In this document: one piece after another, positions 8,107-64,000 of the stretch
Position numbering within the stretch: the stretch's first letter is position 1
Layout: each line of letters starts with the position of its first letter
DNA from: Cymodocea nodosa
Lineage: Eukaryota > Streptophyta > Magnoliopsida > Alismatales > Cymodoceaceae
Assembly (NCBI GenBank): GCA_036874045.1
Contig: JAZBRI010000011.1
Span: forward strand, 10,593,501-10,657,500
DNA: 64,000 nt
Direction of reading: 5' to 3'
The notes under the pieces: model-generated
Seen by the model: only the letters and a program-made list of their open reading frames with translations
The model's database searches: none
What the model was told of the DNA's origin: nothing
Program-made: the position numbers and the translations under genes

Positions 8107-8108
8107 AA

Positions 8109-8120: not shown

Positions 8121-8306
8121 CTTGTTAATAATCTTTGATATAAAATCGATACCAACTTAATTAATATTAAAGCTTATTTTACCTTCCTTGTTTTTAAATA
8201 GAAATTAATATTTAAGCATACGTTTAACTTTATTGATTTTAGGCTCAAGTTGTTTTTAAAGTTTTAAACTATTTGAAATCTAATAGGTTGAAAAATCTAA
8301 GGTAAG

Positions 8307-9021: not shown

Positions 9022-9420
9022 TGTTAGGGCAAGTAGTATAGGTGTGAAGTATGCCACAAGAAGTCCAGGTTAAATCGAAAGCTTGTTAACAGTAAGTATC
9101 CGACAGTTTTATTTTTCGATAGGTTATCAAACCCAAGTATTCAAAAGTATATTTTCAATCGAAGGTTTTGAGCTAACTATCCGAAAGTTAGAAGATTTCG
9201 GAGGGTACTAGCTATAACCATCTGAAATGACTTAAAGGGCACTTAAGTGGACGTTCGAACAGTTATGAAGCTAAGTATCCAAAAGTCAGACACTTAAGTG
9301 GATGTTCGAATAGTTAAGAAGCCAAGTATCAAAAAAGTAGAGACTTAAGTGAGTTTTCAGATAGTTAAGACAGTAACTATCCGAAAGACATGCAGTTTTC
9401 AGAGAGTTAATAGCAAAACC
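9022..9420 (+). mobile_element. Cop-4 LTR, left part (split by a solo LTR)
   Basis: It starts TGTTAGGGCAAG and has alternating TTTCGGATAGTTA-like and TAACTATCCGAAA-like dyads. It is interrupted at 9421 by a Cop-3 LTR and appears to resume at 11394. The two parts together would be about 920 bp, ending directly before a tRNA-Met primer site at 11918. Confidence 0.6.
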
Positions 9421-13639: not shown

Positions 13640-15190
13640 GCAATTATTGTGCATTTGTGTCAGCCAAAATTAGTGGATGAAGCTTGTAAGGAAAATTACT
13701 AGACAATGGCTATGTAGGAAGAATTAAATTAGTTCTAAAAAAATAATGTCTAGAAATTAGTGAAGAAACCAGTAAGAAAAACCATCATTGGGACCAAATA
13801 GATTTTCAGAAATAAATTAGATGAAGAAGGAAACATAATCAAAAATAAAGCTCAACTAGTTGCACAAGGATATAATCAGTAAGAAGACATTGATTATGAA
13901 GAAACTTTTACACCTGTGGTTAGAATTGTAGCTATTAGAATGCTGCTTGCTTTTACAAGTAGTATGAGAATAAAACTATTTCAAATGGATGTAAAGAGTG
14001 CATTTCTAAATGAAGAAATACAAGAAGTATTTGTCAAGCAGCCCCCCAGATTTGAAGATGAAGTAAATTCAAATCATGTCTATAGATTAAACAAAGCATT
14101 ATATGGTCTGAAATAGGTACCTAAGGTATGGTATGAAAAATTGAAAAAGTTTTTAATTGATAATGATTTCAGCATAGGTAAAGTAGACAACACTTTGTTT
14201 ATTAAAACTATTGATTTGCACATGTTAATTGTTCAAATCTATGTTGATGATATTCTTTTTAGGGCTACATTAGAAAATCTATGTCATGAATTTTAGAATT
14301 TGATGAAAAATGAATTTGAAATGAGCATGATAGGAGAGTTAAAGTTTTTCTTAGGATTAAAGATCCATCAAGTGAAAAATGTCATCTTTGTTAATCAGGA
14401 AAAATATTGCAAAGAAACTCTAAAGAAATTTGGCTTTGAAAATATCAAATCTGCAAACACACCAATGAGTTCAAATACTAAACTTGAAAATGATGACTTA
14501 AGTGTTGCAGTAGATCAAAAGAAATACAGAGGCATGATTGGATCTCTTTTGTATTTATCAGCAAGCAAGCCAGATATCATGTTCAGTGTATGCTTGTGTG
14601 CCAGATTTCAAGCATCACCAAGAGAATCTCATCTGAAATCAGTAAAAAGAATATTCAAGTATTTACAATGTACTAAAGATTTTAGATTATATTACTCAAC
14701 TGATAACAATCTAACTTTAACAAGTTATAGTGATGCAGATTATGTAGGTAGTAGATCAAACAAAAAAAGTACAAGTGGCACATGCCAATTGCTTAAAAAT
14801 TCTTTAATTTTATGGTTCAGTAGGAAATAAAATTGTATTGCATTATCCACTACTAAGGTAAAATATATTGCAACAAGTCTATGTTGTGCTCAAATTTTAT
14901 AGATGCAGCAAACTTTAGCAGATTACAAACTGAAAATTCAGAATACAAAAATATATTGTGACAACAACAATGCAATAAGTTTATCTAAAAATATAGTATT
15001 TCACTCTAGAGCCAAGCATATTGAGATCAGACATCATTTTTTGAGAGATCATATAGAAAAAGTGCATACCTCACTTAAGTTTGTTTCAATAGAAAATCAA
15101 CTTACAAATATTTTTACAAAACCATTAAATGAATCAACATTTAATCATATTAGAAGAAATCTAGGCATATGCTCTATACATGACTTATAA
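13640..15190 (+). pseudogene. Ty1/copia reverse transcriptase and RNase H
   Basis: RT and RNase H follow in order: a GTK.IFRNKL segment, LVAQGYNQ, FQMDVKSAFLN, RLNKALYGLK, the YVDD catalytic box (14240-14251), FEMSMIGELKFFLGLKI, MIGSLLYLSASKPDIMFSV, then RNase H with SYSDADYVGS and SKNIVFHSRAKHIEIRHHFL, ending IFTKPLNESTF...GICSIHDL. About fifteen stops interrupt it; by eye roughly ten are TAG, five TAA and none TGA, mostly at conserved Gln or Trp positions (for example GLK-stop-VP and TK-stop-IF). It would copy the element RNA to DNA; it is dead. Confidence 0.9.
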
Positions 15191-23180: not shown

Positions 23181-24320
23181 TTATCGACCCCTCCTAAGTA
23201 TATCACTTATAGCATTACATATTTTATCTCCTAGATGCCTAATATCATTTCTGATGTCTTTAAGCACTACATCTAAGTCAGGAGGTAGCTGGGTTTGCTG
23301 TTCTGCTTGAACTAAATAACTTTGTTGTTGTTGTTGTATATGGTCTGTATTAGGTTGTTGTTGTTGTCGTTGAGGTTTATGCATGGCCTAGAATTTTTGC
23401 AAATCTTTGACACTAAATGCTCTCATGCCTTTAGTTTCAGAGGGCCAGTTAGATAAAGTCAATTGGCTTGCAAGGATTCTACATATAGCATCACCATAAA
23501 ATAACTTTGAACTCATATGCTGTAGTTGAGACATAAAAACATCAAACCAATTTATTTGAATTCTATTCAGCAGGCCATAAGTTGCATATAAACAGCTTCT
23601 ACTAACTTCCAAATTGTGTCCAACTCTCTGAAATAAATTTGCATGCAATATATTTGCAATAAACCTTGCCTCTGCATTTAGGTTTTCCATTAATCTCATT
23701 TCAGAATATACATCTGGAATTTTTGATAAAGACTGAATGTTCCATTCCAGTTGTCTTATTATGTCAAATCTGTTGGTAACAACAACACCTTCATTCTTTA
23801 ATCCTAAAACTTCAAAAATTAACTCAGGAGACAACATAAACTCTTGTTCATTTATTTGAGTTTTCAAAAAATTTCCATTCTCGACCAGATTGCTATAAAA
23901 AGCTGCAATAAGCTCTGTGTATTGCTTCCATTTCGTTCCTACTAGCAAGAATTTAATGAGGCCTTGAAACTCAAACAAATATCTTATTTCCATCAAATTT
24001 CTGAATTTTATTGGACGAGCATGCAGAATCTAACATGTAATCAGATTATTGTATTTCTGCAATGCTTCTTCAGATCTAAAATGAATTGCATTACCTTGAA
24101 TTTTTAATATTGTACACAAAGAAGGTGATACCTGAAGCTGTGATTCAGAGTTTAATTCATCTTCAGGAACCTCTTCTTCAAAATGAATGTCATGTTATTC
24201 CTCTTCCAAAATATTATCTTGAAGCTGCTTAGGTAAGCTTGATTCTTCAGCTTCAACAGTGTTAGGAACATTGTCAATATGCTCAACATTCATCTGTTCA
24301 GTCTCTATAGAATATTCAGA
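23181..24320 (-). pseudogene. Copia downstream ORF (putative plant transposon protein), copy 1
   Basis: Read on the minus strand from about 24320, an acidic lead (PNTVEAEESSLPKQLQDN, then EEEVPEDELNSE) is followed by IHFRSEEALQKY, MEIRYLFEFQGLIKF, ELIFEVLGLKNEG, EARFIANILHANLFQRVGH, LYATYGLLNRIQINWFDVFM, KLFYGDAICRILASQ and a tail with QQQQQ runs. An internal frame of 202 codons (23388-23996) is intact; a TAG (at about 23394-23396) separates it from the Gln-rich tail and two more stops lie upstream. The same domain order occurs after pol in gypsy A and B and in copia E. I recall it as the domain called putative plant transposon protein; function is unknown. The 5' end is cut at 24320. Confidence 0.8.
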
Positions 24321-25290
24321 GTAGTTCAATCAGCTATGAATATCTGAATATGGAAGAAACTACTAGAATTCCACCCAATACACTAGAAGGAATAGATCAT
24401 ATTATGGGGATAGATGAAGGATTAATTATTTACAGAATCAAACCAAGGTATGCAATTCTATTACCTGATATTTTAATTAGAAATCCTATTACAAGAGAAG
24501 AATGGAATATAGGAAGGCCTAATAGATTTGAAGTACCAACTGAAAATTGTAGGTCAGCTTTAACATTTTCTGATAAAAATTCGACCATTCCTAAAAGATT
24601 GTATTACTAGAGACCTACTAGAAATTGGGATGAGGATTAATGCTTAAGTATGTATGATTTTCTGAATAGATCTTGGACTAAAAATACTATGATATATCTA
24701 GGACAGAAAACTTTAATTAACAACATACATGTTATACTTGATGGATATATATATTTAGTGTTAGATATATCAATTTCATTTGGATCTGATTTATACATAG
24801 TAAGCATAGATAGTTATGATGATGACTTTATAGAAATATTGCCTATACCGAGTGATATAGCTAAACCACCGTCTTCAGAATATGATAAAATTCAATTAGG
24901 AATGTGGTATAATGAATATGATGATCCTACTTTATGTCTGATAAGATGGTGGGATGAATTGATGAAATTTCAAATATAGATTATGAAAGACCTAAATGAA
25001 TGGAAGTGGGAAGAGGAATATATTGAAATATAAGTAGAAATAGAAATAGCTACATTATCTTGGAACAGAAATGGATCCCTTTCTGCATTTCAATTTATTA
25101 ATGGTAATACACTTATATTTAGTATTGATAACATATTGTAAGTTTATAAGTTAAAAAGAAAAATAGACTGCATTAAAACATAATTAATAGCAAGAAGAAT
25201 TATGCCTAAAAAGTTTGCTTGGACTAACACATTTATTCCATTTGTTACTACTTTTCAATCATGTTCTTAAACTGTGATTCTGTACTTTTA
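24321..25290 (+). pseudogene. F-box-associated (FBA)-type domain gene in a Gyp-L 3' end, copy 1
   Basis: The start of this copy (NHEYL/MEETTRIPPN) aligns with the F-box gene copy at 63561-63995. Visible features are ILIRNPITREEWNIG, a match to the FBA motif of an NP.TGE core after a hydrophobic strand, then HVILDGYIYLVLDI, VSIDSYDDDFIEILPIP, LCLIRWWDELMKFQI-TAG-IMKDLNEWKW (Trp expected at the stop, as in the usual IWVMKDY..W), and LSAFQFINGNTLIFSID. TAG or TAA stops at 24608, 24638, 24977, 25031, 25139 and 25181 make it a pseudogene. The N-terminal F-box is missing in this copy. F-box proteins of this class select substrates for SCF ubiquitin ligases. It sits directly before a polypurine tract and LTR. 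Confidence 0.75.
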
Positions 25291-25555
25291 ATGTTGTGTG
25301 TAATCTGCATTTATTTTTAGAAAAGAAAGAAAAATTTTAGTTTTTGTTTTATTTTATAAAAAGAAAAAAAACAAAATATCAATCCAATTTGTTGGTATCT
25401 GTTCTAGGAAACCAACTAGCTTGCTTGTGAGCCACCAAAGGCATAGGAGCCTGGGTTCCATAGAAGACACTGAATTAACAATTTATGTTTTGTTGTAAGT
25501 GTTATTTTATTATATGTTTTGCTAAGGGACTAGCAAAATTTAAGTATGGGAGAAG
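25291..25555 (+). other. Gyp-L 3' end with polypurine tract
   Basis: This stretch is AT-rich, with TTTGCTAAGGGACTAGCAAA and then GTATGGGAGAAG (25544-25555) abutting the LTR start. The minus-strand element at the right edge has nearly the same ending (TTTGCTAAGGGATTAACAAA and GTATGGGGGAAG). The segment TTTGCTAAGGGACTAGCAAA is itself a short dyad. Confidence 0.75.
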
Positions 25556-27885
25556 TGTTTAGAATGAAAAAGTGCATAATATTAATGGTTAAATGATGGT
25601 TAATTGCATAATATTTAGCTTATCATATGAGAATTAAGCCATTATGTTATAATTGCACTATTATATGCTTTAATGAAGGAATCTGCATAATTTCAAGGAA
25701 TTAGCATTAATTAAGTACATTTCTAAACTGTCGGTAAGTTGCAAGTTTTTAATTCTTAAGTATCCGAATTTTCTGTTATTTCGGAGAGTTATATTGCATG
25801 TACTAGACAGTTATGTTTTAAATGCTTAAAGAATATTTTATTATTTCCTGAAGTACACATCTTGAAACGTTAATGCATGACTTAAGTGAATTTTCGGTAA
25901 GTTATCTGGTAACTATCCGAAACGCATCTAAGCATCGGATAGTAAGGTTTGCAAGTATCTGAAATATCTTTTTATCATAAAATTTACTAGGACACATGTT
26001 GTTATCTGAAAACCTGATCTAAGTGTAGTTTTATAGTATTAAGCATGATCTATTTTATTTGCATATATTTATATCATATACATGTGCATAGTAACAAGTC
26101 GTTGAGTTAGTGTTCTTTTTGTTGAAAGATCACGTGTCAACTCGTTGAGTTACAGGTTTAAAGGTATAAAAAAGTCATGTGAGAACTCATTGAGTTAGTG
26201 AGTAAAAACCGTAAGTTGTATATCTGAATTCGTTAAGTTAGAATTATGCACGTGTTGAATTTAAATGCTTTAGTATGTCATGTGAACTACACATGCATAA
26301 CTCGTTAAGTTAGCATAACTATATGCATTGAGTTAATTGAATATACACTAAGGTAACGCATTGTGTTAGCAAGCTTATAAGTTATTTCTTTATTGCACGT
26401 GTTTTATAGTTAAATCAACGAAGTAAGTCTGTTGAGTTATCTGTAACTCCACGGACCATTTATTTTCTAATACGCCACTGTAGTAGTTACAGAAACAAGA
26501 TATTCAAAGGAAAACCACGATTGCATGTATCACGCAGGAATTCACTCGTGGAATGAAGAAGAAATCACCATTGTTGATATGAATGAAGGAAATCTAACCG
26601 ATCATCTAAACAGAAGTAGTTACTATAGAAAGAAATATAAAAGAAGAGGAAAAAGACGAAGAAGTGTGTGTGTGCAGAGGTGGAGGACCGCGCTAACTAC
26701 AGTAAACGTCGGAACTTCCCTAAAGCTCCACACCACCACCAAAATCACCAACCATCGGACGTCTATAAGGATACTTTCCTGATGTCGGGTCGATTTCGAG
26801 CCAAACACGGTGACTGACAATCATTGTGAGGAGTGATCGCGTCGTAGGAAGGGAAGTCATTTTCACCAAGCATCGACTCAAATCTCAGGAGATCGTAAAG
26901 CTTCTAGCCTTAGTTTCGGGTTGATGCTAATATGCTAAAGAGGAGATCATCTTACAACTTTGGATTTGCGATTCTATAGGGAGAGGAGGCAGGATTGTAC
27001 GTGATTAAGTTTTCAGTGGTGTAATCACGTTGCATGTAGTGACAGAAGTTTTTACTATCGATAAAGATTTTTACATTTCACCTTTCATTCATCTTTAGGA
27101 GCATATCAAAACAAAAATACCAAAAACAACAAATTATCTGTGTTTACATTTAGTATTAGAGTGTTATATTATTTGTTTTATATCGTGATTAATGTTATCA
27201 TTATTAGTATTGTGAATGTTTTATGTTTGTTTGATTTAGAAAATAGAAAATAGTTTTATTGTTTACTGAAATTGATTCATTCCAAATACTTAAAGATTTT
27301 AATGGTTACTGTTTGAAATATTTGAATGTTAGTGTTGTTTAATGATAAATTTAATATTAACTAACATTAAAGAGCTTAATTGATGTTATTTACATTCTAT
27401 GGAACCGCCCAATGGTTGGCCGAATTCCTTTGTAAATAGTAGTATTTAACTAGAAAGATAGGCTTGTGGAGTTAACTTAAATCCACGAGGTTAGTCCATT
27501 GAGTTAGCCATAACTCAACGAACTAAGTCCGTTGTATTGAGTTAGTCATAACTCAATGAACTAAGTCCATTGTATTGAGTTAGCCATAACTCAACAAACT
27601 AAATCCGTTGTGTTAACTGTAACTCAATAGAGTGCTTACTGAATACATTTATACTCCAATATAAAAATCAGAACAGTACACAATTCTTACTCAATCTCTG
27701 TAGGATCAACCTATACTTGCACACAAATACAATATACACGGTGCATTTGCAGTTAAAATACAAATTGGAATTAATCTCTAATTTGTGTGAAAGGTTGTTT
27801 GTTTACTTCTTAAAGTAATTATTGATATAAGTATAAAGACAAATTAAACAAGTTTAAAAACAAAAGTTAACAAATCCAATACACT
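25556..27885 (+). mobile_element. Gyp-L 3' LTR, slightly truncated
   Basis: It starts TGTTTAGAATG at 25556 and reaches ACAAATCCAATACAC, some 60 bases short of the ACAAACA end, so it is almost complete (about 2.3 kb). A 43-base unit (CATAACTCAACGAACTAAGT with its GTTGAGTTAG partner) is present three times at about 27500-27610, which makes this LTR longer than others. Antisense frames at 26623-26820 are incidental. Confidence 0.8.
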
Positions 27886-39960: not shown

Positions 39961-41005
39961 ATGTATTATTCATCTACTTGTATTAAAAAATATCTAATTG
40001 TATGTAATTGTAAACTATTTATAAACAAATGTTTAAACAACAAGATGCTTCTGAATTAATGATTGTGAATGAATAATTTAATTTAGAACTGTATTGAAGA
40101 TGAATATTGTATATCTATTTGTTTAAAGCTTTGCAGGAATGTTTTAAAATTTTTACAATTTTATGAAAGATGTGCTTAAAGGCACAATTATTTAAGAAAC
40201 ACCTGAATATGTTTACAAATTGTAAAAACTATAAATTCTACATATCAAGAAATGAACTGTAAGTTAAATATGCATATAATGTTCAGATTTAAATGAGTTT
40301 AAATTGGAACACTACATTAATGTAATGTATTTAACTTTATTTAAGTTGAAGTATGTAGGAAAAATATATAGAAGTTAAGATGAGAAGTAGTTGTTAGAAA
40401 AATTTGCTAAGTATTAACTCAACGAAGTTAGTTCATGGAGTTAACATTAACTCCACGATGTCAATAATAAAATATAAGGTCACTCCATTGAGTTATCTAT
40501 AACTCAACAAAGTTAGTCCGTGGAATTAGCAAATAGAAGATGAAGCTAGTCTGTGGAGTTAGCTGTAACTCAATGAGATTAATTCGTTGAGTTAGGAACA
40601 GTAACTGAGGTAGTCCATTGAGTTATCTGTAACTCAACGAAGTTAGTTCGTAGAGTTAGTGCAATAGTTATTCTTTTATCCACGGATGAAACTTCATGGG
40701 TTTAGCAGTTATTGAAATTTAAAAATTATAAGTGGAACAAGTATCCATAAAAATAGAAACCATACTACATATTACAAGACATGTTCTTGCAACGAGATTC
40801 ATTTGCATTATGGGCGTGCATTATAAATATAGAACAAAATGTTATTTATTGATTACCAGCAATTGAGGAGAGAAAAAAATTCGTTGGGAAACTAGAAGGA
40901 GAAGCAGCTAATTCAACTTCATCCGTCAACAACTATTTATTGTGAACAAAGCTTCAAACTAGTATGTAATTAATCTTTTGTAATTTTACTTTATGTTAAG
41001 AGTTT
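39961..41005 (+). promoter_or_regulatory. Second dyad-rich gap, before the capsid gag
   Basis: After about 440 bases of plain AT-rich sequence, 40410-40680 holds at least five ATTGAGTTATCTATAACTCAAC-like dyads and halves such as TTAACATTAACTCCACG and GTCCGTGGAATTAG. No LTR terminus (ACAAACA) and no TGGCGCC primer site occurs. A short ACCAGCAATTGAGGAGAG stretch near 40855 shows no clear similarity to a primer site. Arrangement resembles the gap at 36999-37730. Confidence 0.45.
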
Positions 41006-41996
41006 ATGAGCACATGGACTCATTCTCCTAGCACTAAACGATTAGTAAGAACACCTACACAAGATTATTTAACATAGAAGCATACTGAAAAATTTTCTAA
41101 AGTGGACTTTAACAAAATCCTTAGGAGTGTAGCTAACCTTTCTTTAAAGAAGAATGAAGATATCACTGCTCTAGTAGAAAAATCATTAAGGGAAATTCTA
41201 TATCCTGAACTAGTTGATGAACCTTCATGTATTCGATTGTCAAACTTTGAGAGAGATAGGTTTGAACTAAAATCTAATTATATTAGTCAATTACCACACT
41301 TTCATGGATTAAAAAAAGAAGATGCCTATTATTTCTTTAGAGAATTTAATGAAGTTTGTCAAATGATGAAAATGTCGAACATGAGTATTGATGCTATTAA
41401 ACTTAGATATATTCCTTTTGCTTTAAAAGACACAGCTAAGAGATGGTTATATACTTTGTCGCCTGATTCAATTTCTACATGGACTGAATTTTGCTTTGTT
41501 TTTTTGGAAAAATATTATCCAACATATCAAACAATTAAAAACAAAAAGGAAATATTAATGTGTAGCCAAAAATAAGGAGATCATTCTAGAAATATTTTGA
41601 ACAATTCAAAGATTTACTAACTCAATATCCACATCATGCAATGAGTAAAGCACAATTAATAGGTATAATTTATGAAGGCATAGATGTTTCAACTAAATCT
41701 TTATTAGAATCTACTTGTCAAAATGGATTTTTAAAACTGCGTAGTGACGAAGCATGGGCATACTTGGAAAACTTTCCAAAAAGAACTACTTAGTGGGAAA
41801 ACTCAACTAAAGCTATTATAGATAAAAGAATATTACCAAGGGGAATGAATGAAATAGATTTAAGCACTATGCTTGAAGTTAAATTAACTAAGTTAACAAA
41901 GAAAATGAAAGAGTTATCATTAAATCAAAAACTAGCAAAAAAGAATGCAAATATTAATGACTTAGATATTATTTATGCTAGAAACTAGAAAGATAA
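41006..41996 (+). pseudogene. Athila-type capsid gag (Retrotrans_gag)
   Basis: The ATG at 41006 gives MSTWTHSPSTKRLV; one TAG (at about 41075) precedes a clean 157-codon frame with LPHFHGLKKEDAYYFFREFN, IDAIKLRYIPFALKDTAKRW, LYTLSPDSISTWTEFCFVFL and KYYPTYQTI. A frameshift near 41570 leads to KYFEQFKDLLTQYPHHAMS, GIIYEGIDVSTKSLLESTC and EAWAYLENFPKRT. This is the capsid domain order of Athila gag. It would build the particle shell. It lies after the downstream ORF of gypsy B rather than next to a 5' LTR, and it is cut at 41996 by a Cop-5 LTR. Confidence 0.85.
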
Positions 41997-43024
41997 CATA
42001 GGATCGTTGTATCACAAGAGGGAGGGTGAATTGTGTCTTTAGTAATTAAATTACCAACGGATAAAACAAGAATACAAAACACTTGTAAATAAAATTCTAT
42101 TCTTTATAAACTTTAAAGAAAGAATTTATAACTTCTTTTCAGCTCAATTCCCTTCTTATCAGTTTTGATACGGTAAAGTCCGATATACAATTCAAATAGA
42201 AAATGAAGTCCTTATTCTAAGCTAATTTCGAATTGTATAAAACCTTATCATTATGCACGTAGCTCTTTTTCCTTCTTTTTGCTCAGCTTCTATATCTCTT
42301 CTTCTTCTATTGTCGAATTTCTATATTTTTTGCATTTATAGCTTCTTATTCTAAAATTTCTTGGAATTCCAAACTTCTTCTGATGTTGGGAATTATTTTG
42401 GATTGGGATGATCGTAATGCAACTCGTACTCTCTATTTATAATAGTCAAAACTATGACTTCATGTTCAGCATGTTCATCCACTTAATCCATAATCTACAT
42501 ACTAATTTCAAATTCAAATTATCCACGATTTCTACTATCTTTTTGAATTTCCACTATGTCCACTCTCTATTTTGAAATTTCCACTATCTCCACTATCATT
42601 TTGAATTTCTATGATTTCATATCATAGATCCATCGAAACTTTATCTTCTTGAAGATTTGTAGAATATCTTCTAAGTCACCATTTTAGTTGAACACTTATC
42701 TTTAAAGTCCTGTAAAACAAAAGGCAAAATCGAAACGACTTCCTGTAAAACGATAACTTAACTATACGAGTTTTTAACATAACACTTCGACTAAATCGAA
42801 ACGTTAACTATCCAAAAGTTTAATTATCCAAAGCTTAACTATCTAAAAACTTTAATTCTCTGAAAAATCTTAACTATTCAAAAGTTAACTATTCAAAATT
42901 TTAAATGAAACTTTCTACTAACTTGTCAATATTTAACTACGTGACTATTATACTTAGAAAATATTATTTAGACTTATTTATAAACTTTAATAAAGCATTC
43001 ATCATCAAAACAAAATTCCTATCA
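41997..43024 (-). mobile_element. Copia E 3' LTR (Cop-5)
   Basis: On the minus strand it begins TGATAGGAATTTTG...GATGATG at 43024 and ends CACCCTCCCTCTTGTGATAC...GATCCTAT near 41997. It is about 1.03 kb long. TTAACTATCCAAAA half dyads cluster at 42800-42900 and one TATACGAGTTTTT lies near 42763-42775. The left end is inserted in the Athila gag at 41996; the exact terminus is uncertain by a few bases. Confidence 0.75.
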
Positions 43025-52467: not shown

Positions 52468-53597
52468 TGTTTAGAATGAAAAAATGCATATTATTAACGG
52501 TTAAATGATGGTTAATTGCATAATATTTAGCTTATCATATAAGAATTAAGCCATTATTTTATAATTGCACTGTTATATGCTTTAATTGAAGAATCAGCTT
52601 AATTTTGGGGAATTAATGTTAATTTAGTACAATTCTGAACTATCGGTAAGTTGCAGGCTATGAAATTCTTAAGTATCCAAATTTTCTGATATTTCGGATG
52701 GTTATGTTTAACATACCGAACATATTTCAAACAGTTATGTTTAACAGACCGAACATGTATCAGATAGTTATATTTAAATTGCCGAACAGTTATGTTTTGA
52801 AAGAATATTTTATTATTTCCTAAAGTACACATGTCGAAACCATAATGCATGACTTAAGTGAAATTTCGATGAGTTATCTATAACTATCCTAGATTGCAGC
52901 TAGGCATCGGACAGTTATCCTTGTAACTCTTCGAAATCTCTTTTTATTTATAAAATAGCTGAGGATATGTGTCATGTTCTGGTAAAGTGACTTAAGTGGA
53001 TTTTCGGTGAGTTAGCTGTAACTATCCGAATTGCATCTAAGCATCAGATAGTTAGACCTATAACTCTCCGAAATGTTATTTTATGATTAAACTATTGTCG
53101 ACATGTGTCGATAACTGATAGATTTACTTAAGTTATATATTGGTGAGTTATTTGTAAGTATTCGAAATGAATCTGAGCATCGGATAGTTAAGTTTATAAG
53201 TATCTGAAATGCATCTAAGCATTGGATAGTTAAGTTTATGCACGTGTTTTATAGTTAAATCAATGAAGAAAGTCCGTTGAGTTATCTGTAACTCCACGGA
53301 CTATTAATTTTCTAATAGTTAAATCAACGAAGAAAGTCCGTTGAGTTATCTATAACTCCACGGACAGTTCTCAAATTCTTCAGCAATTCCTTGTGGGATT
53401 GACCTGTACTTGCACACTGATACAATAGACACTGTGCACTTGTAGTTAAAGTACAAATTGGACTTAATATCTAAATTGTATTAAAGGTTATTTGTTTACT
53501 TCTAAAAGAAAGAATAGGCATAAAGATAAATTAACTAAGTAAAAATAGAAGTAACAAATCCAAGTTTTTCTAGTGTAGTGTTGGGAAAACACAAACA
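52468..53597 (+). mobile_element. Gypsy A 5' LTR, internally deleted form
   Basis: It starts TGTTTAGAATG and ends GAAAACACAAACA, with AGTTTTA before the primer site. At about 1,130 bp it is roughly half the usual length; it jumps from the AGTTAAATCAACGAAG block (about 53340) straight to the ATTCCTTGTGGGATTGACC block. Two copies of a 63-base AGTTAAATCAAYGAAG... unit stand at 53249 and 53319. Dyads of the TTTCGG/CCGAAA class are well kept. Confidence 0.85.
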
Positions 53598-53604
53598 AGT
53601 TTTA

Positions 53605-53622
53605 TGGCGCCGTTGCCAGGGA
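53605..53622 (+). promoter_or_regulatory. Primer-binding site, tRNA-Asp type
   Basis: TGGCGCCGTTGCCAGGGA. Plant tRNA-Asp ends ...CCCCGGCAACGGCGCCA (CCA included), so 17 of the 18 bases can pair, allowing the A after GCC as a mismatch. Athila-type elements are known for this primer. A GAATT/GAATTGAATT run of about 45 bases follows. Confidence 0.9.
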
Positions 53623-53737
53623 ATTGAATTGAAGTGAATTGAATTGAATTAAATTAAATTGAATAGATATAAGCAACTGTTAGAACTGTTTTGTTTTAAT
53701 AGCTAGAGTGTTGTGTGTTTTCTTCTATAATTGAGAA

Positions 53738-54668
53738 TATGGCATATGCTTATGCTCAAATATTTCTGAAACCTGTAATTAGCATATGTGAATTCTGCAA
53801 TTCTAAAGGACATGACATTTCTAACTGTTTGAAATTGAGACGTTTACAGATGGTTAGATCCCATGAACAACAAATGAATTATCCTCAATATAATAGAGCC
53901 AAGTATGAGAATCCTATAATTTACCCAACTGATGGTCAGTATAGAATGTGTAATATGTTGAGAGACACAGAAGTTTGGGATAGGTATGACAGACTAGAGC
54001 GTAGTATAGAGCAAAATCTTGACAAACTGGAATACTTTATGTGTCAACAACAAGAAGTCAACTAATTAAATTATAAGGAAGCATATTCAGAACCTAAAAA
54101 GGATATAATTTACGAAACTAAAAAAACCATAATCAAAATTGATCAAAAATTGAATGCAATGAAATTGAATGATCTGGAAAGAAAATTAAAAGCATTAGAC
54201 GAATATACAATGAAAATACAAGTTATGCAATAAGATAATGAAAATTATAATGTTATAAACCTGCATAATTTGCAAAATATACAGCAAACAGAAAATATTA
54301 ATACAAGAGAATTTAAAGAATGCACTTTAAAACTAAAAACAATTGAAGATCATAATTACGAAAATGACATACAAAAACATCATAAGAGTAATGAAAATCT
54401 GGAAGATGTTTGTGTAACATTAAGATCTGGAACTGATATACCATCAAGAACTCAAAATGAAAATGATATGAAGGTGGATAAAAGTAAAAATCAAAATGAT
54501 AATGAAAATATAATAGCTGAAAATCTAGAAGTCACTGAAAAACAATCTGAATTTGCTAATGAAGCTAAAAATGATCAAACAAATCAAATGAAAGAAAAAG
54601 AATCTTTGAAATCAAAATCTTTAGCACCCTATCCTAAAAGATTACAACAAACAATACCTGAAAAATAA
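53738..54668 (+). pseudogene. Gypsy A zinc-knuckle and linker ORF (no capsid domain)
   Basis: ATG at 53738 gives MAYAYAQIFLKPV and an intact CCHC knuckle, CEFCNSKGHDISNC, within 20 codons. A polar, helix-prone linker follows, with RYDRLERSIEQNLDKLEY and DVCVTLRSGTDIPSRTQ. There are two open parts, 53715-54065 and 54270-54668, separated by TAA stops. Only 115 bases lie between the primer site and this ATG, so the capsid that normally precedes the knuckle is absent, as in gypsy B. The knuckle would bind RNA. Confidence 0.85.
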
Positions 54669-55330
54669 GAAAAAATCAGAGAAATTTTTGAAAGAGTACA
54701 AGTTAACATTCCTTTGTTAGATCTATTGCAGAAAATGCCTCCTTGTGCTAAATTTCTAAAGGATTGGTGTACTAGGAAAAGAGAGCGAAAAGTTCTTAGA
54801 AAGGTCTTTTTAGCTGAGAAAAGTAGTTCCCTATTTCTGCCACAAATTCCTAAAAAGTTATCTAATCCTGGAATCCTTGTTGTATCATACACCATAGGAA
54901 ATACCATTCTAGAAAGAACTTTAATACACTTAGGTGCAGGTATAAATGTTAAGCCAAGTGATATATTTGCATCCTTAGGATTAGAAGGCTTAACTTCTAC
55001 TAGTACGGTTATTCAATTAGTTGATAGAAGTATAAGATACCCTAGAGGAAAAATAGAGGATGTCTTAATTAAAATCAAAAATTTTATATATCCAATTGAT
55101 ATTGTAATTTTGGATTCCCAACAAATTAAGCATAAAAATAGTGATACATCTTTAATTTTGGGAAGGCTATTTTTAGCAACATCAGGGGCTGTTATAAATT
55201 GTAAAACTGGAGTAATGAAGTTAGCATATGGTAATGAGGATACTCAATTAAATATTTTCAAACCAGAAAGGTTTGAGGAATTAGAAATGTCTTTACATAC
55301 CATAGACTTTTTAGAGGATGAAGGAGATAT
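54669..55330 (+). pseudogene. Gypsy A protease
   Basis: The 397-codon frame (54714-55907) begins LDLLQKMPPCAKFLKDWCT and leads to SYTIGNTILERTLIHLGAGI. The catalytic Asp of DLGAG is His here, so the protease is dead in this copy; gypsy B keeps the Asp. It continues VKPSDIFASLGLEGL, VIQLVDRSIRYPRGKIEDVL, FIYPIDIVILDSQQ and LGRLFLATSGAVINC. A TAA at 54666 separates it from the zinc-knuckle ORF. Confidence 0.9.
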
Positions 55331-56640
55331 GTTAGATGATGTGATTCAAGAAGAATTAAATAAGCAAATCAATTCTGAAATTCTAGAAGAAAGTGAAAGC
55401 ATAAATATAGAAGGAGATATGGAAGAAATTAATTTAGAAAATGATGATGTTCAATTAGGAGCTCTAGCTTCTGATGGGCAACATTTAGAATTAAAACCTT
55501 TACCTTCTGAATTAACCTATATATTTCTAGAAGATAAACGAACCTATCCAATCATTATTGCTTCAGATTTAAAAGAGGATCAAATAGCTAAATTAAAAGA
55601 TGTATTAAAAAGTTATAAAGAAGCAATAGGATGGACTATGACCGATATAAAAGAGTTAAGTTCAACTTTATGCTATCACCACATATATTTAGAAGAAAAT
55701 GCTAAACCTGTTAGAATTCCTAAGAGGAGATTAAATCTAAACCTTAAAGAAGTAGTCAAGAAGGAAATAGTGAAATGGTTAGATAATGACATAATTTATC
55801 TGATTTCTGATAACTCGTGGGTTAGCCCAATCCATGTAGTTCCCAAGAAATCAGGATTAACAGTTATTAGGAATGAAAGTCAAGACTTGATACCTACTAG
55901 GATTTAATCAGGCTGGAGAGTATATATAGACTATAGAAAGCTGAATGTTGTGACTAGGAAAGATCATTTTCCCTTACCTTTTATAGATCAAATGCTGGAA
56001 AGATTAGCAGGGTAAGAATATTTTGTTTCCTAGACGAGTATTCAAGTTATAATCAAATCCCAGTAGCATTAGAGGATCAAGAGAAAACAACGTTCACATG
56101 TCCTAATGGAACTTATACTTTTAAGAGAATGTCATTCGGATTATGCAATGCACCAGCTATCTTTCAAAGGTGTATGTAGGGCATATTTACTAGAATGACT
56201 GAAGATTTCTTAGAAATATTTATGGATGATTTTACTGTATATGGCAACTCTTATGAAGTTTGTTTAAGCAATTTAGACCAAATATTAAAACACTGTGTGG
56301 AAAAAAATCTAGTTTTAAATTAGGAAAAATGTCACTTCATGGTTAAACAAGGAATAGTCTTAGGGCATGTTGTTTCTAAGAAAGGGTTGGAAGTAGATAA
56401 AGCTAAAATAGAAGTAATTTCTAACCTACTAGAACCTAAATCAGTAAAAGATATTAGATCATTTCTAGGACATGCTGGTTTTTATAGAAGATTTATTAAA
56501 GACTTTAGCAAAATAGCTAGACCTTTAACTAATCTATTAAAAGATGTCCCATTTAACTTTGATAAAAATTGTAAAGAAGCATTTTTCAGACTTAAGACTA
56601 GCTTAATTTCAACTCCTATAATTCAAGCACCTAATTGAAA
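55331..56640 (+). pseudogene. Gypsy A linker and reverse transcriptase
   Basis: The linker is acidic (LEESESINIEGDMEEINLEN) and leads to GALASDGQHLELKPLP and YKEAIGWTMTDIKELS. RT motifs: IYLEENAKPVRIPKRRLN, WVSPIHVVPKKSG, VYIDYRKLNVVTR, EYF with a frameshift before FLDEYSSYNQIP, MSFGLCNAPAIFQ (Pro to Ser in the usual MPFGL), FLEIFMDDFTVYG (catalytic FMDD, 56219-56230, the usual Athila form) and [19 protein letters not shown]. Stops: TAA at 55905, TAA at about 56012, TAG at 56177, TAG in LN-stop-EKCHF and TGA in PN-stop-NHP; nearly all replace Gln or Trp. Confidence 0.9.
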
Positions 56641-57952
56641 CCATCCATTTGAATTAATGTGTGATGCATCTGATTTTGCTGTAGGAGCAATGTTGGGACA
56701 GAAAATAGAAAAATCTCCTAGAGTGATTCATTATGCAAGCAAAACCTTAAATGATGCTCAAGTTAATTACACAACTACTGAAAAAGAATTATTAGCTATT
56801 GTGTTTGCCTTAGAAAAGTTTAGATGATATTTGATTGGAGCTAAAGTAATAGTATACATGGATCATTCAGCTCTAAAACATCTAATAAAGAAAAAAGACA
56901 CTAAACCTAGATTGATCCGATGGATATTATTATTACAAAAATTTGATCTAGAAATTAAAGATAAAAAAGGTTGTGAGAATGTAGTAGCAGATCATTTATC
57001 AAGATTACAAATAGAAAAATCAAATATTGAAATTAAGGATAATTTTCCTGATGAACAATTAATGACCATCAACACAATGCCTTGGTATGCAGACATAGTT
57101 AATTACTTAGTTACTGGTTTAATACCTAAGGATTGGAATAAACAAGATAAGAAATTATTTTTCTCAAGAGTAAAATATTACTATTGGGAAGACCCATACT
57201 TATTTAAGAAATGTCCTGATCTGATTTTAAGGAGGTGTATTCTAGAAACTGAATATCCGAGCATATTGTCTTTCTGTCATGACCAAGCTTGTGGAGGGCA
57301 TTTTGGTTCAGGGAAAACTGCTGCAAAAATTCTACAATGTGGGTTTTATTGGCCAACACTATTCAAAGATACTCATAAATATTGCTTAAGTTGTTTAAGA
57401 TGTCAACAAATAGGAAGAATATCAAAGAGGAATATGATGCCTCTTAATCCTATTGTTGAAGTTGAAATCTTTGATGTGTGGGGAATAGATTTTATGGGTC
57501 TATTTCCTATGTCGAATCAATTTAATTACATATTGTTGGGGGTGGATTATGTATCTAAATGGATAGAAGTTATTCCTACAAAAACTAATGACAACAAAGT
57601 GGTAATAAAATTTATAAGAACAAATATATTTGCCAGTTTTGGAATACCTAAAGCTATTATCAGTGATAGAGAAACTCATTTCTGTAATAGAAGTTTTGAA
57701 GCCTTAATGAAGAAATATGGAGTAAACCACAAAATTGCAACATCATATCATCCGCAAACAAGTGGACCAGTAGAAAGTGCAAACAAACAAATTAAGTTAA
57801 TCTTAGAAAAAGTAGTAAATCCTACTAGAACAGATTGGGCTAATAGATTGATAGATGCATTTTGGGCTTATAGAACTACTTATAAAACGAGCTTAGGTAT
57901 GTCACCTTTTAGGCTAGTATATGAAAAAGTTGTCATTTACCTGCTGAAATAG
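56641..57952 (+). pseudogene. Gypsy A RNase H and integrase
   Basis: RNase [36 protein letters not shown], a TGA at 56825, then a clean 373-codon frame (56831-57952). That has DHSALKHL, an integrase HHCC finger ([19 protein letters not shown]), and catalytic Asp codons at 57488 and 57665 and Glu at 57773, giving a DD35E spacing with all three residues kept. [20 protein letters not shown] follows, then a frameshift at YEK. The integrase core therefore looks chemically intact, although embedded in a dead polyprotein. Confidence 0.9.
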
Positions 57953-58380
57953 AACATAAAGTTTATTGGGCATTAAAAACTCTGAACACTAATTTAAATC
58001 AAGCTACTGAAAATAGAAAAATGAAACTAATTGAATTAGAAGAATTTAGAAATGAAGCTTATTCGAAGACTATAAGAGAAAAAGAGAAAATTAAATTCTG
58101 GCATGATATAAAAATTATTCCAAAAAGCTTTGAAATAGGACAAGAAGTATATCTTTATATGGCTAGACTCCATAACCATCCAGGAAAATTAAGATATAGA
58201 TGGGTAGGACCTTACATAGTTCAAGATATTTATCCTTATGGAGCTATTGAAATTGAAAATCCTAAAAATCAAAATATATTTAAAGTAAATAGATAAAGAC
58301 TGAAACATATTCTGAAAACACCAACAAGCTCCTTTGGAATTATGGAAGAAGTCAGAGTAGTGAACTACTCGAGCTTTACT
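57953..58380 (+). pseudogene. Gypsy A integrase C-terminal part
   Basis: The shifted frame [19 protein letters not shown] leads to a 91-codon frame (58021-58296) with IPKSFEIGQEVYLYMARLHN and WVGPYIVQDIYPYGAIEIEN, then NIFKVNR-TAA where gypsy B has NGQILRP. It ends VNYSSFT-TAA at 58383. Same plan as gypsy B, no chromodomain. Confidence 0.85.
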
Positions 58381-58984
58381 TAATAGAAAATCAATTTTTT
58401 ATGTGGATATATAAAAAATAAAAATAAAAATATATATATATATATAATAAAAAAAATCGTTGCGGTTCACCGATCGGATCCATCGGTATGACTGGAACAT
58501 AAAATATATGTATATTAATTTTCAGAAAAAAAAATGTTGGTTTTACCGAAACATAGTATCGGTTCAACTGGAAAAATATTTAGGTCTGACTGAAACATAG
58601 TATTGGTTAAACCGATAAAAATAATAATAATAATAATAATAAAACAGAAAAATTATTATCTGTAGTATTTTTATTATTATATATGTTTGTACGGGGAGTC
58701 CGTTGAGTTATGCTTAACTCAACGAGCTTACTCCGTTAAGTCTTGAGTTAGTCAACGAGCTTATTCTGTTAAGTTAACTGTAACTCAACGAAGTACTGTA
58801 GCTAAGACCACAGATAAAATAGTAATAGTTGGTTCGGGAAATGACCCGATTACCCACCTAAACTTAGGGCTTATTTAAACTAAAACCTAGGGTTTTGGGG
58901 GCATTATCCAACGAATCATTTAGAATCTAGAATAGTAGAAATCAGAGCGATTCCATGCTGTTGGGTAACTCCACGATGAGGAAA
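58381..58984 (+). promoter_or_regulatory. Dyad-rich gap between integrase and downstream ORF (gypsy A)
   Basis: It has an AT run (58431-58446), TCGGTT/AACCGA-type dyads (58455-58610), an AAT trinucleotide run (58619-58642) and CGTTGAGTTATGCTTAACTCAACG plus GTTAACTGTAACTCAACG (58697-58795). The order matches gypsy B at 36999-37730, so it is a family feature. A promoter or RNA-structure role is inferred. Confidence 0.45.
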
Positions 58985-60739
58985 ATGACGCCTGAATTCT
59001 GGGAAGATGCAGTGGACACCGCACAATTTCTGAAGGAGTTTGAAGAATGACACATGCGGTAGAAGATCAGAAATACAACAAGAGAGAAAGAGCTATAAAA
59101 GGTAGAATCAGAACTCTTTAACTTGAGGAAAGTTTTAGTTGAGTTAGAAATACAAATACCACAGATAATAGAGACACGAATTAGAGTGGCAACTGAAATT
59201 GCAGTTAGCAAAGAAAGAAAAATCTAGCCAGACAATGAAGTAGCCCTAGAGCTAATTCAACGTAAAGCCAGATTATGGTTTAAGAAATGCATTGCTGGTC
59301 GAGAAAGCTGGGCAATATGGGAGCAGCAACGAGCAAGAGAATAGGAAGAACCAACTACTGAAAGACCTGTTCCTAAGGAACAGTAGTCAGGACCTCTAGT
59401 TCAGCCAATAGAGCCATTGCCACGAGTTGCATTTGCTTGGCCGAGAATTGAAGAAGAAGAGAAAAAATTTATTAGCTTGGTCAAAACAGTAAGAGACCAA
59501 GGTGATACTCAAGAGATAGCTATGGCTAAGGCACATAATTTATATGATGGCATTAAGAAAAAAAGGTCGAAGAAAGGATAAGGGCCCAATACAAAATAGA
59601 AGTTGAACAGTATCAAGCAGCAACTAAATCAAGTGTTGTAGGAGAGGCTGGTCCTTCGAGACCAGTAATTATAGAAAAAGTTAAACAGGAAGAGTCAGTA
59701 CTTGTGGCTCGAAGGCTTGTAGAGCCTACTTTTGTATATTTAATTTCAGAAGATGAAGAGGAAGAATAGGCACAACTAATCAGAAAAAAGAAATGAAAAG
59801 AAAAAGTGCTTGAAAATGAAGAAATTAAATTTGAGATACCATTGTCAACAGGGCCTGTGGAGCAAATTTTTATAAACCTGCTATCCGATTCTGAGGAGGA
59901 GTAGGAGTTGTAGTAGCAGGAGCAAAGAAAAGAAGAAAATCAAGCTAAAATTAGTCTACAGCCTATACAAGAAGAAACAGAAATTAGGGAAGAAATTGAA
60001 TTACCCATGACTCCATCCCAATCTGTTACAGAATCAGAAAGAACAGTAACAGAATAGATTGCTAGTCAGGAGGAAGAAGAAAGAACATAAAATGAAGAGG
60101 TTAAAAAAAGCCATTTGGACAAAAATAATTTCACAGATTCCACTAAAGAACAAGAAACTCTTCAGCAATTTATGGAAAGAATTCAAGACAGAGTGGAGAG
60201 TTCTGCCGGCTCACCACCACAAACAGAAACAGAAATTCAGGAATCTGTTGAAAATGTTCAAATGCAGCCTATGTTAGAGGAAGAGCAAGTACAAACCCCT
60301 CTGGAACAACAAAGTTACCTTCCTGACCCGATTGTAACAACAATTTTGAATGAAGTACATTTTTGTAGTCAGGAAGCTTATATCAAATACCAAGAAATAA
60401 GGGGGTATGACATTATTTACAGTAGACCAGTAAATTGGGATGGAATGCAAGAAATCAAATATCTATTTGAATTCCAAGGTCTATTGCAATTTATTTCTCA
60501 AGAGAGAGGGCATACAGTATACGAGAATTTAGTGCCCAATTTTTATGCAAATTTAAGAGAAAGAGAATGAGGATTAATTTCAAATGTGGAGGAAGCTGAT
60601 GTACAGATAACACTAGAGCTTCTCTACAACATTTTTGGTTTAAAGAATGAAGGAATAAAAATTTTGGACGATACAACTACCGTCGAGTGGACTGAATAGA
60701 AAATCAAAGATTGTTTAGCTATAAATCTTGGTGTGCCTT
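58985..60739 (+). pseudogene. Gypsy A downstream ORF (coiled-coil, Glu-rich, putative plant transposon protein)
   Basis: The start MTPEFWEDAVDTAQFLKEF matches the gypsy B ORF start; an earlier ATG at 58955 is possible. It continues with IPQIIETRIRVATEIAVSKE, ALELIQRKARLWFKK, a Pro/Glu-rich part, VAFAWPRIEEEEKKFISLV, a frameshifted Glu-rich region, then a 151-codon frame (60115-60570) with EQQSYLPDP, HFCSQEAYIKYQEIRGYDII and IKYLFEFQGLLQF. After a TGA, VEEADVQITLELLYNIFGLK leads to the break at 60739, where an inverted LTR removes the C-terminus. Stops are mainly TAG and TAA. Confidence 0.85.
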
Positions 60740-62898
60740 TGTTTACGTTTTCCCAGCACTACACTAGAAAAACTTGGATTTGTTACTTCTGTTTTTACTT
60801 AGCTAATTTATCTTTATACCTATTCTTTCTTTTAGAAGAAAACAAACGACCTTTAATACAATTTAGATATTAATTCCAATTTGTACTTTAACTGCAAGTG
60901 CACAGTGTCTATTGTATCAATGTGCAAGTACAAGTCGATCCCACAAGGAATTGTTGAAAAATTTAGAACTGTACGTTTGTTAATAATCAAATTTATATAT
61001 TCAATAAGCTCTCCGTTGAATTATAGTTAACTCAACGGATAAAGTTCGTTGAGTTATGGCTAACTCAACGGATAAAGTTCGTTGAGTTATGGCTAACTCA
61101 ACGGACTAACCTCGTGGACTTAAGTTAACTCTATGAGCTTGTCTTTCTTTTTAATACTGCTATTTACAAAGGAATTCGGCCAACCATTGGGCGATTCCAC
61201 AGATTGTAAATAACATCAATTAAGCTCTTTAATGTTAGTAAACACTGGATTTATCATTAAGCAATACTAATATTCAGATAATTCAAATAGTAACTATTAA
61301 AATCTTTAAGTCTTTTGAACGAACCAATTTCAGTAAACTGTAAAACTAAAACAAACATAAAACAATCACAACACCGACAAAGATAACATTAATTACGATA
61401 CAACACTCAAATACAACATACAAACATAGATAAATTGTTTTTGGTATTTTTGTTTTAATATGAAAATGGAAATGGGCGAAAGGTGAAATGTAAAGTAATC
61501 TCACTTGACAGTAAATACTTCCGACACTACTTGCAACGCGATTACACCACTTACAATTCTGTCTCCTCTCCCTATAGAATCACGAGTCTAGAATTGCAAG
61601 ATAATCTTCTCTTCAGCATACAAGCATCAACCCGAAGCCAAGGTTAAAAGCTCTACGATCTCTTGAAATATAAGTCAGCGCTTGGTGAAAATGGCTTCCC
61701 TTCCCGCGACGCGATCACTCCTCACAGTGATTGTCAGGCATTGTGTTTGGCTCGGAATCAACCCGACATCAAGAAAGTATTCTCACAGACTTCCGATGGT
61801 TGGTGATTATGGTGGATATGGTGGTGGTAACGATGGTTGGTGTGATACTTCGGAGAATCGCCGATACTGTCTGCAGAAAGCTTGGTGCTCCCCTGTATAC
61901 ACTGGCCATCCATCGATCACACACTTTTCTTCTTTTCTTTTATATTTCTTCAATAGTAACTACTTTTGCTTGAATGGTCGGTTGGATTTCCTTCATTCAT
62001 ATCAACGGCGATGATTTATTCTCCCTGTGCAATACAAGCAATCATGGTTTTTCTTCCAACTGTCCTATTTCTGCAACCGCTATAGTGGCATATTAGAAAA
62101 TAAATAGTCCGTGGAGTTACAGATAACTCAACAGACTTTTTTCGTTGATTTAACTATAAAACACGTGCATAAACTTAACTATCTGATGCTCAGGTGCATT
62201 TCGGATACTTATAAACTTAACTATCTGATATATAACTTAAGTAAATCTACCAAATCTCAACACGTGTCAGCAACAGTTTAATCATAAAATACACATTTCA
62301 GAGAGTTACAGGTCTAACTATCCGATGCTCAAATGCATTTTGAATAATTACAGCTAACTCACCGAAAATCCACTTAAGTCACTTTACCAGAACATGACAC
62401 GTGTCTACAGCTATTTTATAAATAAAAAGAGATTTTGGAGGGTTACACATATAACCGTCCGATGCCCAGCTGCAATTTCAGATAGTTACAGATAACTCAC
62501 CGAAAGTTCACTTAAGTCATGCATTATGGTTTCGACACGTGTACTTCCGGAAATAATAAAATATTCTTTCAAAACATAACTGTTCGACAATATAAACATA
62601 ACTATCCGACATATTTGGTCTGTTAAACATAACTGTCCGAAATATGTTCAGTATGTTAAACACAACTGTCCGAAATATCAAAAAATTTGGATACTTAATA
62701 ATTTCACATCCTACAACTACCGACAATTCAGAAATGTACTAAATTGACATTAATTCCCCAAAATTAAGCAGATTCTTCAATTAAAACATATAACAGTGCA
62801 ATTATAACATAATGGCTTAATTCTCATATGATAAGCTAAATGTTATGCAATTAACCATCATTTAATCGTTAATAATATGCACTTTTTCATTCTAAACA
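60740..62898 (-). mobile_element. Gyp-L 3' LTR (minus strand)
   Basis: On the minus strand it starts TGTTTAGAATG at 62898 and ends AAAACGTAAACA at 60740, so it is a full 2,159-bp LTR. The polypurine tract lies just before its start, making it the 3' LTR of an element whose body extends beyond the window. It is inserted in the downstream ORF of gypsy A. The TAACTCAACGGA-type dyad stands three times at 61010-61105 with 4-base loops. Open frames 61682-62014 and 61731-61973 are antisense to the LTR and not supported as genes. Confidence 0.9.
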
Positions 62899-63560
62899 CT
62901 TCCCCCATACTTAGATTTTGTTAATCCCTTAGCAAACTAAGATCTAATTAATTAGTCTATCAAAAAGTGCTAGAATTAATTCCTCTTCTTCTTTTTCATC
63001 TGTTCAGCCTAAAAATATATATTTTGTAAGTTTCAATAATCAACCTGCAAATATACTTAGAATATATGTAATTACATACAAAGTATATCATCATCACAAA
63101 AGTGTTAATTATATTATCATTTGTTCTTCTTTTCATCATTTGCTATCCTGAATTTTCCAATAAGATTTCTAGAAGAAATTTCAACAACATACGAATCAAA
63201 GTACAATCCAATTCAACATGATTAAGACAAGTAGAATAAAGAATTGTATCTCCATTAAAACAACTTCAAAAGTCAATTCCAGATTCATATTTCAGCAATT
63301 CTAGATAACAGAAAATATACTCGATTCATAAGATATCTGCATTTCACAAAACACTTATATCTTTTCAGAATAGTATATGTTTTTTTTTCTTTTTCTTTTT
63401 TTCTTTTTTTTTCTAAAAGTTAATTTGACAAGCTTGAATCATATAGGAGCTTTCTAATGTACCCATGTAACGAGCTTTCAGTCAACAATCCTAGATCTGA
63501 TCAGGATCTTAGGTTGCTAGATTTCAAGAGTCCTTTTTTAGGTCAACAATCCTTACATAC
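62899..63560 (-). other. Gyp-L 3' end with polypurine tract, no gene seen
   Basis: On the minus strand GTATGGGGGAAG (62899-62910) abuts the LTR, preceded by TTTGCTAAGGGATTAACAAA, almost the same as at 25521-25555. Upstream is an AT-rich region with a long polypurine/polypyrimidine stretch at 63379-63413 (plus strand T/C run). After about 63570 the minus-strand sequence no longer matches the FBA copy at 24600-25290, so part of the F-box gene has been lost or replaced here. Confidence 0.6.
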
Positions 63561-63995
63561 CTATTTTATTAAAGCTAACCCACAATTTACAGTTGGTACT
63601 TCAAATCTATTAGGTCTTCCTATATTCCATTCTTCTCCTGTTATAGGATTTCTTATCAAAATATTAGGTAATAATAAACTTGCATACCTTGGTCTCATCT
63701 TGTATATGATTAATCTTTCATCTATCCCCATAATATGATTTATTCCTTCTAATGCATTGGGTGGAATTCCAGTAGTTTCTTCCATAACCAGATATTCATG
63801 ATTAATTGAACTACGATTAAATGACCTCCATATGAATCCATCTCTAATCTTAGTCATTTTTGTAGCTTGTAGTCCCTAAAAATATTTTTCTTCAATATAG
63901 TTTTTAATTTCCTTTGATACACAACACATCTTGCACAGATCTTTGGCTGACAAATTACTCAATACTTCCCTTAATGCATCCAACGGTAATTGCAT
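63561..63995 (-). pseudogene. F-box protein gene (F-box plus start of FBA domain) in a Gyp-L 3' end, copy 2
   Basis: On the minus strand from the ATG at 63995 the frame gives MQLPLDALREVLSNLSAKDL, then CKMCCVSKEIKNYIEE, a clear F-box (LP.D.L.EVLS.L.AKDL....CVSK.). A TAG at about 63880, probably from Gln or Trp, is followed by a 98-codon frame (63857-63561): GFIWRSFNRSS, ETTGIPPNALEGINHIMGI, ILIRNPITGEEWNIG and RFEVPTVNCG, the first part of an FBA domain as in copy 1. F-box proteins bind Skp1 and bring targets to an SCF ubiquitin ligase. The gene lies inside the element, between its body and polypurine tract. The ATG is five bases from the window edge, so a longer N-terminus is possible. Confidence 0.8.
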
Positions 63996-64000
63996 CAATT

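Follow-up and report, generated by a model that had tools for sequence, protein, structure and literature searches.

The window analyzed here, a stretch of 64,000 nucleotides from Cymodocea nodosa (assembly GCA_036874045.1, contig JAZBRI010000011.1, positions 10,593,501 to 10,657,500 of the forward strand), ends within an F-box gene carried by an Athila-like Ty3/gypsy retrotransposon. In the genomic DNA, this gene is found within copies bounded by long terminal repeats (LTRs), after pol and a downstream gag, with its frame conserved between two subfamilies, and from many copies precisely the stretch from GT to AG that holds gag is absent. Taken together, we consider it fairly probable that the F-box is a resident gene of the family, that it is expressed by splicing, and that its product serves as a receptor of the host SCF (SKP1-Cullin1-F-box) ubiquitin ligase. 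What is new is a capsid-type gag located downstream of pol, in a GT-AG intron that directly precedes the F-box. Descriptions of plant LTR elements usually name gag and pol as all that they require, and RNA-directed DNA methylation as the means by which they are restrained. Viruses are well known for counter-defence proteins, which to our knowledge are rare in plant LTR elements. A putative E3-ligase receptor gene kept in frame over many copies makes host-factor degradation by plant retrotransposons directly testable, and the gag-behind-pol order together with its intron would offer an uncommon example of how an LTR element controls expression.

The F-box gene and its distribution in the genome

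The 5' part of the gene occupies positions 63564..64000 on the minus strand, as delimited by the Pfam match, the reading frames and the comparison with two other copies of the family, A_C3 and B_C19. A Pfam profile search confirmed the minus-strand F-box that the sequence-only reading had placed at this end of the window (63998-63879; PF00646, E 8.8e-11, and F-box-like, 9e-6), and the same domain was matched in a full-length copy (PF00646, E 7e-9), the motif lying near the N-terminus of the protein. The start codon of the window gene falls 2-4 bases beyond the window edge, and an in-frame stop (63876-63878) stands between the F-box motif and 104 further codons. These codons, including the stretch with ILIRNPITGEEW, had no Pfam match of their own. 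A weak FBA_1 match was found at residues 202-318 of a full-length relative of 379 amino acids (E 0.0073, below the curated cut-off), which leaves the start of an FBA domain previously read in the window plausible and unproven. The structure model of the F-box protein was unusable (mean pLDDT 33), and C-terminal strands were predicted only in that model.

Compared with A_C3, the window copy is missing ~1.8 kb (A_C3 7540 to 9336), a stretch that takes in the last ~233 of the 379 codons, and the comparison with A_C3 and B_C19 shows that this deletion begins after 63564. The polypurine tract and LTR said to follow the F-box after about 660 bases are present, but the spacing itself is a product of the deletion, the distance from the end of the F-box frame to the LTR being 1763 bases in A_C3 and 1772 in B_C19.

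The LTR-start 11-mer TGTTTAGAATG occurs 10092 times in the 374.6-Mb genome versus 255 for the reversed control, and the junction of polypurine tract and LTR start (at most 1 mismatch) was found 3683 times, with 0 for its reversed control. Protein searches of the genome gave 4557 candidates with the 104-amino-acid query, the best 150 of which match at 89-100% identity, and 4881 candidates with a piece of the second gene copy of the window, the best 150 of which match at 85-100%. These candidates are not confirmed copies, the two sets may overlap, and the scoring of the best 150 says nothing on the remainder. Two patterns across the F-box start matched 1606 genome sites (202 + 1404, at most 3 mismatches).

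We also read pieces 1.3-3.6 kb upstream of eleven 3' ends, chosen by hand among the top rows of the polypurine-tract list and all located on contig C1. F-box sequence was present in 9 of the 11 (8 near full length and 1 with the last third). In one of the other two (L077 with L090), the exon before gag is joined to a second acceptor behind the F-box; the last (L075 with L089) has an irregular deletion, and in L089 (C1:4152055-4154030) gag and the F-box were lost in this way, unlike the splice-like loss in L090. These 3' ends, together with the best 150 candidates of each search, which are close copies, bear out the proposal that the gene is a stable passenger of the family and answer the objection that other members might lack it. 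Hundreds to thousands of element copies carry the F-box gene.

Constraint on the F-box frame

Sixty loci were fetched, 30 per protein search, and they fall into two subfamilies. The gene spans residue 1 to at least residue 362 of the reference copy in 52 of them, two with insertions. Constraint was measured between the two element subfamilies because no host relative was found for a comparison of nonsynonymous and synonymous rates (dN/dS); counts within subfamilies are dominated by decay after insertion, and between-subfamily measures were therefore used. With L009 and L035 dropped (28 and 30 loci by subfamily), the F-box gave a net dN of 0.065 and a net dS of 0.159, a ratio of 0.41 (bootstrap 0.25-0.64), and the corresponding ratio for the gag stretch that precedes the F-box was 0.17 (0.07-0.33; 24 and 21 loci). 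The wrong sense frames (kappa 2) yielded dN/dS values of 0.57-0.80 (+1) and 1.23-1.64, and the antisense frames 0.66, 0.81 and 1.54. The frame test was a clearer sign of constraint than dN/dS: non-triplet insertions and deletions (indels) between subfamilies amounted to 0.87 per kb in the F-box open reading frame (ORF; 25 and 23 loci) versus 18.6 in the 3' flank (25 and 29 loci) and 16.1 in the intron (25 and 21 loci), with 1.20 and 1.39 per kb in the parts of the ORF not used as search queries. The F-box frame has apparently been kept readable by selection.

Several observations weigh against this interpretation. The dN/dS signal is moderate, at 0.55 (0.35-0.82) with kappa 3. The true frame has the lowest ratio, yet its interval overlaps with those of the +1 frame and of one antisense frame (0.66), and by segment (kappa 2) only amino acids 46-130 are significantly below 1, the value for amino acids 251-379 being 0.73 (0.34-1.56). 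Eight of the 60 loci hold the gene only in part, and the loci were picked by protein similarity, which favours intact genes; the non-query segments and the small hand-picked sample of 3' ends point the same way as these loci. Because the flanks are AT-rich, mutation may account for some of the indel contrast. Within the young subfamily, the nonsynonymous to synonymous (N/S) value was 1.11-1.37 for transitions, though 0.53-0.75 for transversions, and stops were not depleted for transitions; these site counts include the misaligned tail of L009 and are dominated by decay after insertion.

One could imagine that an active lineage picked up a host F-box gene a single time and multiplied it through its own activity, without the gene being of use to the element. 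Captured host genes are known in LTR elements, in one or few copies, according to the available text of PMC7264820; many of the F-box gene copies are broken, and both the transitions of the young subfamily and the C-terminal dN/dS interval, which includes 1, would fit such a neutral hitch-hiker. We find this unlikely, however, as subfamilies separated by a net dS of ~0.16 keep the frame, with ~20-fold fewer frameshifts than the neighbouring DNA, the net dN/dS is 0.41, and an acceptor AG before the start codon has been kept in 45 of 49 unspliced loci, in both subfamilies.

Gene order and proposed splicing before the F-box

The order in B_C19 is LTR, primer binding site (PBS), CCHC knuckle (CEFCNSEGHNISDC), a weak protease match (E 0.023, below cut-off) upstream of reverse transcriptase (RT), RNase H and integrase, followed by a long region, a capsid-type gag (Retrotrans_gag, E 5.7e-21) and then the F-box. 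Its pol gave RVT_1, RT_RNaseH and Integrase_H2C2 in this order, rve was matched in A_C3, and one RNase H region was seen among the scanned B_C19 ORFs, a scan that covered part of pol. The window element has the same gene order as B_C19 and, from integrase onward, A_C3. In all five elements where it could be placed, gag comes after pol: by Pfam in the 30290 element of the window and B_C19, and by DNA or tblastn similarity in the 52468 element, the minus-strand element that bears the F-box, and A_C3. The capsid-type gag of the 30290 element is at 41102..42003 on the plus strand (PF03732, E 6.5e-8, Retrotrans_gag in 41102-41575), and tblastn with this gag found no second one in the window. In B_C19 it occupies 6340-7104 (L041/L042) and in A_C3 5726-6941 (L039). 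The gag thus looks split and relocated, with the capsid part behind pol in the intron and the CCHC knuckle upstream of the protease. Among the 54 loci with an F-box start, gag lies upstream in 45, and 5 of the other 9 are intron-less.

A splice donor region (exon end, then GTATGTAATTAAT) is located upstream of gag in the 30290 element (40941..40974, plus strand), and both window elements read in L073 and L074 have donors as well. The acceptor kept in the 45 unspliced loci (25 and 20 by subfamily) is an AG that closes a pyrimidine-rich stretch and lies 9 or 11 bases ahead of the F-box start codon. In 5 of the 54 loci, an exon from upstream of gag is joined directly to the F-box and exactly the GTATGT...AG stretch is gone, ~1.5 kb including gag; the same exact GT...AG removal is found in L082. 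In both subfamilies, the junctions fall at GTATGT and AG. The two genome-wide patterns mentioned above are those of the young subfamily, with 202 matches for the spliced junction and 1404 for the unspliced acceptor, and 0 in the controls for both. Expression of the F-box probably proceeds through a spliced RNA; it counts against this proposal that the splicing is read from genomic copies.

In the mechanism that we propose, the element RNA would be alternatively spliced. Its unspliced form would encode the downstream gag, and a splice from the donor before gag to the acceptor 9-11 bases before the F-box start would give an F-box mRNA, made much as a retrovirus makes its env mRNA. Retroviral env and the Bagy2 env-like gene would be analogous in position and splicing, the product here being of host type. 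Judging from homology, the F-box protein would join the host SCF ligase via its F-box, and its C-terminal region would pick a target whose destruction favours the element, the candidates being silencing or restriction factors and the main alternative the element's own Gag. The element may in this manner use the host protein-disposal system. More tentatively, and as a scenario that we regard as possible but doubtful, the family would have adopted a host-type ubiquitin-ligase receptor as a gene of its own and rearranged its genome accordingly: the capsid gag would have moved behind pol into an intron, and alternative splicing would decide whether capsid is made or an F-box protein able to clear a host silencing or restriction factor.

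If the target were instead Gag or another protein of the element, the spliced RNA would oppose the unspliced one and set copy number or timing. That gag sits in the intron removed for the F-box mRNA, so that the spliced RNA cannot encode it, would suit such self-regulation. It seems rather improbable, however, since a family with thousands of LTR ends does not look self-limited, and the binding of the F-box protein to Gag is only hypothetical.

As for the intron-less copies, the simplest reading of their origin would be that spliced element RNA has repeatedly been packaged and reverse transcribed. In the tree, spliced copies occur at scattered places, five of them next to an intron-bearing copy (with support of 0.90 for L011 and L032, 1.0 for L082 and L080, 0.80 for L018, 0.70 for L036 and 0.17 for L061); L050 is not included in it. 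Support for separate splicing events is mixed, from 0.17 to 1.0, which does not favour recurrence. These copies might also have arisen by exact deletion, or descend from a single lineage without gag that spread: such a lineage could have multiplied by itself, deletions are seen, as the irregular one in L089, and several intron-less placements have weak support. This alternative is nonetheless quite improbable given the position of the junctions at GTATGT and AG in the two subfamilies, the intron-bearing neighbours of the five copies, and the use in L090 of the same donor with another acceptor, the second one, behind the F-box. The pattern of this second-acceptor splice has at least 2 matches genome-wide, the variant of L090 itself lying outside the pattern. 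A second donor-like site (AACAAG, then GTATGTAAYTAAT) lies ~300-330 bases past the end of the F-box frame (A_C3 8541, B_C19 9106) and was seen in loci of both subfamilies. It is preceded by the second acceptor, which has an exon start like the first (AG, then AATCA), and a further 3' intron is possible.

Boundaries of the element in the window

The DNA was read 13 kb past the window edge (L073, L074), and coordinates above 64000 are in extended window numbering. The F-box-bearing element is LTR-bounded and extends over 60740-74801 on the minus strand. Its parts, assigned by similarity to B_C19 and A_C3, are the 5' LTR (about 73987-74801, in L073/L074), the PBS (73967), pol (~72800-69300), a long region without tested genes, gag (~65300-64540), the F-box (from 64004), the polypurine tract (62899..62912) and the adjoining 3' LTR (60740..62898). 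A 5-bp target site duplication, GCCTT, is found at 60735..60739, its other copy (74802-74806) being outside the window. The insertion took place in an older element of the same family on the plus strand (52468..60739, continuing at 74802), which has a 5' LTR, a PBS at 53605, a CCHC knuckle at 53787, pol and then an ORF at 60115-60570. This ORF is Transposase_32-like by eye only, with no Transposase_32 match in the Pfam search. Alignment of the older element with A_C3 runs as far as the first GCCTT, and the element resumes exactly at the second; with GCCTT at both outer ends, the F-box is therefore internal to the inserted element.

The idea that the gene is host F-box DNA next to a truncated element, or a nested insertion whose internal position is only apparent, can practically be dismissed: elements are indeed nested here, the F-box-bearing one inside an older one, but F-box, gag, pol, PBS and both LTRs lie between the two GCCTT copies, which rules out host DNA outside the target duplications as the source of the window F-box, and the same order recurs in B_C19 and, from integrase on, in A_C3. 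The two LTRs of the window element differ by a Kimura two-parameter distance of 0.061 over 815 sites and those of B_C19 by 0.050 over 377 sites, which puts the LTR divergence at ~2-4 million years if rates between 7e-9 and 1.3e-8 are assumed.

Relation to known elements and F-box proteins

The PBS found in the element, TGGCGCCGTTGCC, would pair with tRNA-Asp. A PBS of the tRNA-Asp kind is named for Diaspora and Calypso in the available text of PMC1142308, and the available text of PMC6317226 includes Athila, Diaspora, Bagy-2 and Cyclops-2 in the Athila clade and gives an additional RNase H domain as the mark of Tat. The family described here resembles the Athila clade in its RT-RNase H-integrase order, its LTRs, polypurine tract, PBS and 5-bp target duplication, and the long extra region between pol and the 3' LTR; the putative tRNA-Asp pairing of the PBS and the one RNase H region in the scanned ORFs would fit the clade as well. 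It differs in that the capsid-type gag is downstream of pol, with the CCHC knuckle upstream of the protease, and in that the extra gene is an F-box and not env-like. As the canonical gag-then-pol order is absent, the family is called Athila-like only.

Additional ORFs (aORFs) are shared with other plant LTR elements, namely those with env-like genes and the aORF-bearing Grande, RIRE2 and Retand. In the available text of PMC7264820, the barley Bagy2 env-like gene is a sense aORF reported to be spliced, and antisense aORFs are argued to be without relatives outside elements. In contrast, the sense product here has a recognisable F-box. A host-type gene tied to an LTR element is also seen in maize Bs1 and in Thlaspi arvense, for which the available text of PMC8764390 gives one LTR-gene of the F-box family. 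Unlike these captured host genes, the gene described here has hundreds of scored copies and a frame conserved between subfamilies. Viral F-box proteins include polerovirus P0 and nanovirus Clink; they would be analogous in working only, as cases of a mobile genome encoding an SCF substrate receptor.

The word "F-box" has 0 occurrences in the main texts of PMC7264820, PMC11963269 and PMC6317226, and the available text of these three and of PMC1142308 and PMC8764390 describes no such F-box gene family. The open-licence literature, a scope outside which most subscription journals and preprints fall, gave no report of an F-box as a family-wide LTR-element gene or of gag behind pol in Athila. Searches for relatives of the F-box protein, in collections that may hold few plants, yielded nothing at E <= 0.001 from the 1170 candidates of a large protein collection, only two matches among PDB sequences (E 0.44 and 0.87) and no match in viral contigs. 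Host FBA_1 genes in the same genome gave 0 matches from 31 candidates, and the control genomes gave none either, so this search was uninformative.

Second gene copy and other features of the window

The window holds a second F-box gene copy, limited to the 3' part of the gene, at 24321..25270 on the plus strand (tblastn, 79% identity over 81 amino acids; frame; genome search). The homologous gene that the sequence-only reading had placed before the other 3' end is therefore real, although it starts after the F-box motif, which is missing, and has several stops. A polypurine tract and LTR follow it (25544..27879, plus strand). The pattern of polypurine tract and LTR start was found at 62888 (minus strand) and 25548 (plus strand), each time after an F-box gene copy, in agreement with what had been claimed for both.

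An ORF at 23388-23996 (minus strand) was matched weakly by Transposase_32 (PF20167, at an E of 1.7e-5 that falls short of the cut-off); in the 24-25 kb copy, this ORF lies antisense to the F-box gene, pointing to a rearrangement at 24321. Finally, the stretches 13805-15052 and 49096-47858, which run in opposite directions, are related at ~66% identity over 1260 bases, with an ORF that is copia-type by eye.
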